A stretch of 49,500 nucleotides of DNA, from contig JABDAN010000015.1 of NCBI GenBank assembly GCA_013289175.1, forward strand, positions 1 to 49,500. Reading direction: 5' to 3'. This stretch comes from Bacteroidota bacterium. GTDB lineage: Bacteria; Bacteroidota; Bacteroidia; Chitinophagales; Chitinophagaceae. The notes below the pieces were generated by a model. The model saw nothing but the letters and a program-made list of their open reading frames with translations, was not told the origin of the DNA and did no database searches. Both the position numbers and the translations under genes were made by a program. Positions 31,985 to 34,175 of this stretch are shown one piece after another. Position 1 is the first letter of the stretch; every line of letters begins with the position of its first letter.

Positions 31985-32908
31985 ATGTCCATTATTTGTG
32001 TTGGTAGCATGGACTATGATGCCATCGAAACGCCCTTTGGCAAAACAGATAGGATTGTGGGCGGAGCCGCTGTATATGCAGCCTACGCCGCCGCTAATTT
32101 TCTGAAACCCGTGAACCTGGTCAGTATTATTGGAAATGATTTTGAAGACAAGGAAGTAAAATTACTGGAATCCAAAGGGGCTTCTTTTGAAGGCGTGGAA
32201 AAAGTAAAAGACAAGAAATCATTTTTCTGGAGTGGCCGCTACCACATGGATATGAATACCCGCGATACGCTGGTGACGGATCTCAATGTGCTGGCAGATT
32301 TTAATCCTCAGATTCCGGACAGCTACCAGGATTCCGAATTCCTATTGCTTGGAAATCTGCATCCTGCTGTACAAATCAGCGTGATTAAACAAATGAAAAC
32401 CCGTCCGCGTTTGATCGCCCTGGATACCATGAATTACTGGATCAGCGCTGCCATCGAAGACTTAAGACTGGTACTCACCATGGTAGATCTGCTGATGGTA
32501 AACGACACGGAAGCGCGCGAACTTTCCGGTGAATACTCCCTGGTCAAAGCCGCCCGGGTGATCATGCAGATGGGACCGAAATTCCTGGTCATAAAAAAAG
32601 GAGAACACGGCGCTTTGCTTTTTCATGGAAACCAGGTTTTCTTTGCACCCGCCCTTCCTTTGGAAGAAGTGTTCGATCCAACGGGTGCCGGCGATACTTT
32701 TGCTGGAGGATTTATGGGTTATATCGCCAAGACAAAAGATATTTCATTCAATAATATGAAGACGGCGATCATTGTCGGGTCAGCAATGGCTTCTTTTTGC
32801 GTGGAAAAATTTGGTACGGAACGGCTGAAAGAAATCAATCGCCGGGAAATTGATGATCGGATTCGCCAATTCATTGACCTGGTAAACTTTGACATTTCTC
32901 TTATATAG
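31985..32908 (+). CDS. PfkB family sugar or nucleoside kinase
   Basis: The 307-aa cytoplasmic ribokinase-fold enzyme has an N-terminal substrate-binding part with GGAAVYAAYAAA (about 28-39). VNDTEARELSG follows, and the ATP-anion-hole motif FDPTGAGDTFAGGFMGY carries the catalytic Asp (about 238). It phosphorylates a sugar or nucleoside with ATP; the substrate is not evident. The missing two-glycine SGG style and the RYHMDMNTRDTLVT lid segment suggest the adenosine/cytidine kinase-like branch common in Bacteroidetes, but that is a guess. It is monocistronic and is followed by the asd leader region. Confidence 0.85.
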   Translation: MSIICVGSMDYDAIETPFGKTDRIVGGAAVYAAYAAANFLKPVNLVSIIGNDFEDKEVKLLESKGASFEGVEKVKDKKSFFWSGRYHMDMNTRDTLVTDLNVLADFNPQIPDSYQDSEFLLLGNLHPAVQISVIKQMKTRPRLIALDTMNYWISAAIEDLRLVLTMVDLLMVNDTEARELSGEYSLVKAARVIMQMGPKFLVIKKGEHGALLFHGNQVFFAPALPLEEVFDPTGAGDTFAGGFMGYIAKTKDISFNNMKTAIIVGSAMASFCVEKFGTERLKEINRREIDDRIRQFIDLVNFDISLI

Positions 32909-32998: not shown

Positions 32999-33030
32999 TT
33001 TGGTTTAAAAAAAATGGAAGGTTATTTTTG
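32999..33030 (+). promoter_or_regulatory. Bacteroidetes promoter for the asd leader transcript (TTTG-N20-TATTTTTG)
   Basis: TTTG at 32999-33002 and TATTTTTG at 33023-33030 match the -33/-7 consensus with a 20-bp spacer. The expected start site (about 33034-33038) falls at or just before the ATG of the leader ORF. Confidence 0.75.
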
Positions 33031-33037
33031 TGGTTCG

Positions 33038-33103
33038 ATGAAACAGATTACATCCTATACAAAGAAGAGCACCAAGAAGCCCTGGAACAGGGAAGGTGCC
33101 TGA
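33038..33103 (+). CDS. asd leader peptide, 21 aa, Lys/Thr-rich
   Basis: ATG at 33038, TGA at 33101-33103. The peptide has 5 Lys and 3 Thr among 21 residues, with two Lys-Lys pairs in the order T8-K9-K10-S11-T12-K13-K14, plus one Ile. Lys, Thr and Ile are made from the product of the downstream gene asd. The second Lys-Lys pair (AAGAAG, 33074-33079) lies exactly in the internal loop of the 1:2 hairpin of an attenuator. A ribosome stalling there for lack of charged Lys or Thr tRNA would open that hairpin. Coding potential cannot be proven from one sequence, but the agreement of codon content, promoter and RNA folding is strong. Confidence 0.7.
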   Translation: MKQITSYTKKSTKKPWNREGA

Positions 33104-33137
33104 CATTTTGTATATTCAAAATAATAGAGCCTTCCCC
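33069..33137 (+). promoter_or_regulatory. Attenuator 1:2 pause hairpin and 2:3 antiterminator
   Basis: Pairing 1:2 is GCACC(33069-73)/GGTGC(33095-99) plus CCCTG(33080-84)/CAGGG(33088-92), with a GAA loop. Pairing 2:3 is GGGAAGG(33090-96)/CCTTCCC(33130-36), seven perfect pairs. Segment 3 is also the 5' arm of the terminator, so 2:3 and 3:4 exclude each other, and 1:2 excludes 2:3. GGGAAGG occurs twice (33090 and 33141), as an attenuator requires. Confidence 0.72.
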
Positions 33138-33160
33138 ACCGGGAAGGCTTTTTGTTTTTT
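33128..33160 (+). terminator. Intrinsic terminator before asd (attenuator 3:4 stem)
   Basis: AGCCTTCCC (33128-33136) pairs with GGGAAGGCT (33141-33149) around a CACC loop, giving nine perfect GC-rich pairs. The run TTTTTGTTTTTT follows. It lies 26 bp before the asd ATG and 25 bp after the leader stop codon, so it can only act to stop asd transcription. Confidence 0.9.
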
Positions 33161-33185
33161 AATGAATTAAAACCTGTAAAAAAAA

Positions 33186-34175
33186 ATGAAAGTTGCTGTT
33201 GTCGGGGCCACCGGATTGGTGGGTACCAAAATGCTCGAAGTACTGGCTGAAAGAAATTTTCCGGTTACCGAACTGATTCCTGTTGCTTCTGAAAAGTCCG
33301 TCGGTAAAAAACTGTTCTTTAAGAATAAGGAATGGACCGTGGTCAGTGCAACCGACGCGATCGCAGCCAAACCAGCCATCGCCATTTTTTCTGCAGGAGG
33401 CAGCACGAGCCTGGAATGGGCGCCAAAATTTGCTGCCGCCGGTATTACGGTCATTGACAATTCCTCCGCCTGGAGAATGGATCCTTCCAAAAAACTGGTG
33501 GTTCCTGAACTCAATGCCGATGCCCTGACCCGGGAGGACAAGATCATTGCCAATCCCAACTGTTCGACGATTCAAATGGTAGTGGCACTCAATCCCCTGC
33601 ATTTAAAATACAAAATCAAAAGGATTGTCGTAAGTACCTACCAGAGTGTTACTGGAACCGGCGTTAAGGCCGTTACCCAGCTGATGAATGAGCGCAAAGG
33701 GATCCAGGGAGATATGGCCTATAAATACCCGATCGATCTGAATGTCATTCCCCAAATTGATGTTTTTCTTGACAACGGATATACCAAGGAAGAAATGAAG
33801 ATGGTTCACGAAACACGCAAAATCATGCGCGACGAAACGATACGGGTTACGTCTACCACGGTCAGAATACCTGTGATCGGCGGTCACAGTGAGGCCGTGA
33901 ATGTAGAATTTGAAAGAGATTTTGACCTCCGGGAGGTAAAATCCTTATTGGAAAAAGCGCCGGGAGTGGTTGTGGTGGACAATACCGCCAAACAGGAATA
34001 CCCCATGCCCAAAGATGCCCATAACCGGGATGAAGTATTTGTGGGCCGACTCAGGCGCGATGAAACCCAACCCAATACACTGAATATGTGGATCGTCAGT
34101 GACAACCTGCGCAAAGGGGCGGCTACCAACGCGGTTCAGATTGCTGAATACCTGCTGGAAAAAGGGTTAGTCTAG
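33186..34175 (+). CDS. asd: Aspartate-semialdehyde dehydrogenase
   Basis: This 329-aa cytoplasmic enzyme reduces aspartyl-4-phosphate with NADPH to aspartate semialdehyde, the branch point to lysine/diaminopimelate and to threonine, methionine and isoleucine. The Rossmann motif GATGLVG (7-13) and the catalytic Cys126 in ANPNCSTIQ are present. The catalytic His lies in the IGGHSEAVNVEF segment. Length and order match bacterial Asd. It stands alone as a transcription unit, behind a leader peptide and terminator that look like an attenuator (33038-33160), so expression probably rises when charged Lys or Thr tRNA is scarce. A poly-A stretch rather than a Shine-Dalgarno precedes the ATG. Confidence 0.96.
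   Translation: MKVAVVGATGLVGTKMLEVLAERNFPVTELIPVASEKSVGKKLFFKNKEWTVVSATDAIAAKPAIAIFSAGGSTSLEWAPKFAAAGITVIDNSSAWRMDPSKKLVVPELNADALTREDKIIANPNCSTIQMVVALNPLHLKYKIKRIVVSTYQSVTGTGVKAVTQLMNERKGIQGDMAYKYPIDLNVIPQIDVFLDNGYTKEEMKMVHETRKIMRDETIRVTSTTVRIPVIGGHSEAVNVEFERDFDLREVKSLLEKAPGVVVVDNTAKQEYPMPKDAHNRDEVFVGRLRRDETQPNTLNMWIVSDNLRKGAATNAVQIAEYLLEKGLV

Follow-up and report, generated by a model that had tools for sequence, protein, structure and literature searches.

The gene asd in a member of the Chitinophagaceae is very probably governed by a ribosome-mediated transcription attenuator that senses charged tRNA-Lys, with threonine and isoleucine as a probable second input. The element lies in a 49,500-nucleotide stretch of contig JABDAN010000015.1 (hereafter the window), which belongs to an assembly that is 80% complete. 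The gene predicted to be regulated encodes aspartate-semialdehyde dehydrogenase (33186-34175, plus strand), and its product matches the NCBIfam model TIGR01296 with 431 bits (cut-off 324) as well as Pfam PF01118 and PF02774. In the proposed mechanism, a ribosome would load close to the very 5' end of the transcript and begin translating a short leader ORF. With Lys-tRNA scarce, it would stall on one of the conserved Lys codons, covering region 1 of the leader RNA and leaving region 2 free; region 2 would then pair with region 3 to form an antiterminator, and RNA polymerase would continue into asd. With lysine plentiful, the ribosome would move on to the stop codon and mask region 2, the 3:4 helix would form, and transcription would stop 5' of asd.

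All elements of the window leader lie on the plus strand. A promoter, which we take to be of the Bacteroidetes -33/-7 type, occupies 32999-33030 and consists of TTTG (32999-33002), a 20-nt spacer and TATTTTTG (33023-33030); direct reading of the letters finds it exactly as an earlier interpretation of the window, made from the sequence alone, had described it. That sequence-only reading had also reported a leader ORF of 21 codons with five Lys codons, three Thr codons and two Lys-Lys pairs, and direct reading bears this out. The ORF spans 33038-33103 (ATG 33038-33040, TGA 33101-33103) and encodes MKQITSYTKKSTKKPWNREGA, with Lys codons beginning at 33041, 33062, 33065, 33074 and 33077 and Thr codons at 33050, 33059 and 33071. 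Since the -7 element begins only 15 nt 5' of the leader ATG, the transcript should be nearly leaderless. The same spacing recurs across the family: a strict TAnnTTTG lies 14-19 nt 5' of the in-frame leader ATG in 53 of 99 family leaders and is accompanied by an upstream TTTG in 52 of those 53, while only 3 of 99 shuffled 70-nt controls contain TAnnTTTG anywhere. Many of the other 46 leaders carry variants such as TANNTTCG or TANNTTTA, as judged by eye. Leader mRNAs with this promoter arrangement should thus have almost no 5' UTR.

The predicted RNA fold of the leader is strong. The minimum free energy (MFE) of 33030-33165 is -43.8 kcal/mol, against -26.7 +/- 3.2 in 200 shuffles, none of which was as good (z -5.3). 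Region 1 (33056-33064, TATACAAAG) comprises Tyr-Thr-Lys codons. Region 2 (33090-33114) contains GGGAAGG at 33090-33096, the 5' side of the antiterminator, and TTTTGTATA at 33106-33114, which pairs with region 1. In the MFE fold 33056-33063 is paired with 33107-33114, and the internal loop of this 1:2 hairpin falls exactly on the second AAGAAG (33074-33079), as had been proposed. The intrinsic terminator (33126-33160), likewise anticipated as a 3:4 hairpin followed by a T run, appears as a separate hairpin in the MFE fold and was recovered by a terminator scan, which sets the hairpin at 33126-33151, counts 11 pairs when G-T is allowed and finds its tail rich in T. Region 4, within it, is a second GGGAAGG at 33141-33147, and either copy can pair with the shared CCTTCCC of region 3 (33130-33136), which agrees with the earlier suggestion of mutually exclusive folds. 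The antiterminator had been drawn as a seven-pair helix; the pairing of GGGAAGG with CCTTCCC holds, but the helix exceeds seven pairs because ATTTTG (33105-33110) and CAAAAT (33117-33122) make an inner stem, so that its 3' half extends over 33117-33136. The TTTTG inside TTTTGTATA can accordingly pair with CAAAA (33117-33121) as well as with region 1.

The element is conserved upstream of asd in relatives. Among 58 genomes searched by asd protein similarity, 54 gave a match, and the best 30 of these loci had without exception (30/30) a CCYTCCC terminator preceded by a leader ORF, a region 1 resembling CAUACAAAG and a region 2 containing UUUUGU, although at one locus (L014) the element was found only on searching further upstream. 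The terminator lies 48 to 359 nt from asd in these loci, and the genes 5' of the element differ among them. As to the duplicated GGGAAGG, the feature that relatives had been expected to retain, the competing arrangement of G-run, CCYTCCC and G-run is kept (29 of 30 loci pass this loose motif) but the exact letters are not kept in all. Among 80 asd loci from named organisms in a separate collection, chosen by protein only, the element was found in 22 (E < 0.005, on the asd strand), including records of Flavihumibacter, Niastella, Limnovirga, Filimonas and Parafilimonas, and was absent in 58, including Mucilaginibacter, Pedobacter, Sphingobacterium, Flavobacterium, Hymenobacter and others, as well as three metagenome-assembled genomes labelled Chitinophaga pinensis.

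Covariance models extend this distribution across the family, placing a match immediately 5' of asd in 93 of the 147 Chitinophagaceae genomes sampled (78 loci through model R1 and 15 further genomes through model R2); the other 54 genomes showed no asd-linked match among the matches examined. R1 matches occur in 110 of the 147 genomes (E 0.01 or better), some of them away from asd. When 97 loci were read (seven weak ones from the window's own genome, the other 90 from the family), asd adjoined the R1 match in 78. Of those seven weak loci, only the one before hisG proved to be a leader. R2 matches occur in 111 of the 147 genomes (E 0.0001) and rest mainly on sequence, since the R2 structure retained only the terminator pairs. 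Forty further R2 stretches comprised 15 before asd, one before dapA and seven before hisG (by BLAST), two before lysA and two before an aminotransferase gene, the remaining 13 having no recognisable leader target. Outside the family matches were few, in four genomes of one and three of the other of the order and phylum samples, and the seven matches inspected there were all ordinary gene-end terminators, none of them before asd.

The leader ORF and its Lys codons are conserved together with the structure. The sequence-only reading had tied its proposal to the persistence of the short ORF in relatives, and an ATG-initiated ORF is indeed kept in 99 of 100 aligned family asd leaders, the exception (L145) having no in-frame ATG; a further leader, L366, has none within the stretch listed. 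When codons are numbered from the ACA codon of region 1 as position 0, Lys is found at +1 in 92, at +4 in 79 and at +5 in 88 of the 100 leaders, a uniformity that is overstated, and a conservation that is partly by selection, because sequence models supplied some of these leaders. Only the 30 loci obtained by asd protein similarity and the 80 named asd loci are free of such selection, and of 29 genus loci picked by protein alone, 15 have Lys at +4 and all have it at +1 and +5. In the set of 100 leaders the +5 Lys is encoded by AAA in 46 and by AAG in 42, so that the third base varies while Lys is retained. Leaders contain on average 4.4 Lys and 2.2 Thr codons; none of 99 is free of Lys, and two lack Thr. 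Conserved Lys and Thr codons upstream of asd, which the earlier reading had proposed to look for in relatives, are present, Thr occupying position 0 in 84 of the 100 leaders. The C-terminal half of the peptide is variable, and many leaders end soon after the KK pair.

The helices were compared across species in two ways. In an alignment-free duplex test, each leader's own pairing partner was compared with foreign partners (n=98; L145, with no ATG, and L187, with too short a region, were omitted), and own partners were preferred family-wide, with z of -12.9 for 1:2, -5.4 for 2:3 and -21.6 for 3:4 and 0 of 2000 permutations as extreme in each case, values in which relatedness among the leaders is still included. 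Within the genus the corresponding values were -3.0, 0.0 and -7.6. In the genus alignment of 30 sequences, 81, 91 and 94% of cells are paired for 2:3, 1:2 and 3:4, exceeding slid versions, and column covariation was not above shuffles for any of the three helices. Of the covarying stems suggested earlier, then, the family-wide preference for own partners, kinship included, was found, but column covariation within the genus was not.

The geometry of the switch was examined by folding calculation in 99 leaders, with RNA removed up to 12 nt past the first base of the A-site codon and with region 3 allowed to pair upstream before region 4 is made. With the A site at -4 to +6, the mean probability of 2:3 is 0.96-0.99; it declines from +7, reaching 0.15 at +13 and 0.19 at the stop codon, where 12 of 99 leaders still have 2:3 above 0.5. 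The conserved Lys codons thus lie within the range where a stall would free region 2. The full-length MFE fold contains 3:4 in 94 of 99 leaders. In the window, codon 14 (the final Lys, in the second KK) is the last ribosome position to spare the complete antiterminator; one codon on, at 15, the helix is weaker, and at the stop codon it has disappeared. When no ribosome is placed on the RNA, the transcript short of region 4 is also predicted to adopt mainly 2:3 at equilibrium (mean probability 0.80, exceeding 0.5 in 84 of 99 leaders), so that default termination would need 1:2 to form first and persist. The earlier reading had held that scarcity of either Lys or Thr favours 2:3; by this calculation a stall at any conserved Lys codon would free the antiterminator, while Lys appears to be the common signal and Thr/Ile probably a secondary one.

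Related leaders at other genes point to the same amino acid. In other genera, Lys-rich leaders of the same layout precede dapA at seven loci and lysC at one (L203), and two lysA loci of one genus, L376 (G155:C19) and L380 (G033:C21), have Lys/Thr leaders encoding MSLITSIKTIKTKKPYLYG and MTLIANIKTIKTKKPYLYG; the identities of dapA, lysA and aspartate kinase rest on models above cut-off. Because Lys is kept despite nucleotide change and the same leader stands before dapA, lysC and lysA, the signal common to all of them would be Lys. The genus with the lysA leaders had no examined asd match, as if the switch there sat on another gene of the pathway. Among relatives of the window, inspection of 30 dapA loci turned up no Lys leader, and none of 30 loci of monofunctional lysC had a Lys leader with a terminator; with neither dapA nor lysC so equipped in the window's genus, the lysine leader there is on asd alone. 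The chances are about even that Chitinophagaceae have a lysine regulon under ribosome-mediated attenuation. A single Lys-tuned leader would then control asd in nearly all cases and, in certain genera, dapA, lysC or lysA in addition; Thr/Ile codons would be confined to the leader of asd, the branch gene, and the codons of each leader would mirror the amino acids made downstream.

The asd leader could instead chiefly sense threonine and isoleucine, its Lys codons being a by-product of A-rich RNA. The frequent Thr at position 0 and the codons at +3 speak for such sensing: at +3, Thr is found in 48 of 100 asd leaders, with all four Thr codons in use, and Ile in 24. Taken together, Thr or Ile occupies +3 in 72 of 100 asd leaders against none of seven dapA leaders (Fisher 0.0003; 0.0025 counting five genera). 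The dapA leaders in this comparison were aligned visually at +3, and in two of them a deletion affects that position. Six genomes with both leaders have T or I at +3 in asd and not in dapA. Against Thr/Ile as the chief signal, the Lys codons at +4 and +5 lie outside region 1 and are kept through synonymous change, and the leader also stands at dapA, lysC and lysA, genes that serve Lys alone or reach Lys first. Moreover, the Thr at position 0 is within helix 1:2 and may be structural, and thrA of the same genome has its own, different Thr/Ile-rich leader. This alternative is accordingly unlikely, and the +3 pattern fits, without proving, an extra Thr/Ile signal added to a Lys-sensing attenuator at the branch gene asd.

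An additional role in trans for the peptide or for the short RNA released by attenuation, of the kind reported for rnTrpL/peTrpL of Sinorhizobium, is rather less probable still. The expected near-leaderless start would be shared with rnTrpL as described in one report (PMC10117765), and a short stable RNA would be expected; the variable C-terminal half of the peptide and the early stops after KK, however, fit a role in cis.

The Lys-sensing attenuator has close mechanistic relatives. With thrL and the his, trp, phe and ilv attenuators of Proteobacteria it shares end-product codons in a leader ORF, the alternative 1:2, 2:3 and 3:4 helices and a terminator; the classical mechanism and attenuation of thrABC have been described (PMC1183508; PMC12925634). 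It differs from thrL-type attenuators in its Lys (plus Thr/Ile) codons and its targets asd, dapA, lysC and lysA, and from those of Proteobacteria in its Bacteroidota promoter and its presumably near-leaderless start. The Rfam leader families (Thr, His, Phe, Trp and others) gave no match at the gathering cut-off in the window.

The nearest precedent is SEP5 of Sinorhizobium meliloti, a small ORF in a 5' UTR that is translated, contains six codons for Thr and three for Lys, is suggested by its authors to be a leader peptide and is reported to be conserved in Sinorhizobium only (PMC10117765, in its account of SEP5). Its target is named "aspartate dehydrogenase" in that paper and may not be asd, and, unlike for the asd leader, no terminator or competing helices are described in that account (PMC10117765). 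In Flavobacterium psychrophilum, of the same phylum, structured 5' regions with clues to leader peptides precede amino-acid operons, and the conserved 5' elements named include pheA and hisG; asd, lysine and threonine are absent from the main text of that study (PMC9723704). Searches of the open-access literature yielded no Lys leader at asd or dapA apart from SEP5, so that the view that a Lys/Thr attenuator on asd is undescribed in Bacteroidetes stands within that literature, with SEP5 as a near precedent (PMC10117765). The mechanism is known, and the amino acid, lysine, and the lineage are apparently new. For other amino acids, some attenuators in Bacteroidetes/Chlorobi were reportedly predicted in a 2004 study by Vitreschak.

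In other phyla asd, dapA, lysC and lysA are controlled by the lysine riboswitch (L-box, RF00168; PMC5584792), an aptamer that, unlike the asd leader, has no leader peptide. A metabolite- or protein-binding RNA switch with the same terminator, in which the ORF is incidental, would account for the strong conserved structure (that of the window, and folds of six leaders with z of -5.0 to -6.9) and for a U-rich stretch of high conservation. The ORF, however, has its start, stop and Lys codons in 99 of 100 leaders, and no Rfam family reached its gathering score in the window, where the best sub-threshold match was itself a leader-peptide family (Phe_leader, 28.4 bits, 55 needed). RF00168 was found neither in the window nor in any of 147 family genomes, while a control search was positive in 4 of 14 named genomes, including B. 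subtilis and E. coli. A binding switch is therefore very unlikely. The T-box model, also considered for the asd leader, was not matched when the window was scanned with Rfam.

It is scarcely credible that the hairpin serves only to end transcription of the preceding gene and that the short ORF arose by chance: a pfkB-type gene on the same strand does end at 32908 and leaders of about 20 codons are short, but the element is kept despite the differing upstream sequences and distances from asd in the 30 loci, and such a terminator would give no reason to keep the ORF, the Lys codons and the competing 2:3 helix.

Lysine genes are known as RNA-regulated mainly through the lysine riboswitch, and one survey assigns riboswitches to lysine and attenuators to threonine, histidine and phenylalanine (PMC1262725). 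An attenuator reading Lys codons would extend the peptide-leader solution to lysine, in a phylum in which RNA regulation of amino-acid synthesis is little studied, and, if the interpretation is correct, Chitinophagaceae use ribosome-mediated attenuation where other phyla have the lysine riboswitch. The asd and dapA leaders of the same genomes, which differ in Thr/Ile codons as their positions in the pathway predict, amount to a natural experiment. A near-leaderless attenuator would also stand in a phylum mostly without Shine-Dalgarno sites, their general lack having been stated for flavobacteria (PMC9723704).

Several other leaders were seen during the survey. Before a trpE gene (L202, 263-373), identified by its best NCBIfam match, which is below cut-off, there is a terminator with a leader containing one Trp codon (MKANRNSNNSWHLNSDQG). 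A gene for a class I/II aminotransferase that scores below every NCBIfam cut-off shown, so that its specificity is unclear, follows a terminator and a leader ORF containing Lys/Tyr codons at three loci (L194, 245-410; L375; L385). Of 25 hisG loci in relatives and the window's own genome, 23, the own-genome one among them, have a short His-rich leader ORF upstream, and two of the 25 are halves of one gene; the own-genome hisG (L115/L282, G000:C3, about 67490-67720, minus strand) has a His leader, MKKSFTIHHHHSLPRR, and a strong terminator. The thrA gene, a fused aspartokinase-homoserine dehydrogenase, was read in the own genome (L323, G000:C80:6600-7460) and in related regions (L324-L340), where a Thr/Ile-rich frame ends in a conserved hairpin around the stop codon. 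No clear intrinsic terminator was seen in the thrA regions, with one weak candidate (L337). At least 7 T/I in 12 codons occur in 16 of 19 thrA regions, the own genome having 6; the hairpin motif is present in 18 of 19, and a conserved CCATAT..TGGGC stretch lies 3' of it, so that this leader possibly represents another kind of attenuation, as far as its sequence indicates.
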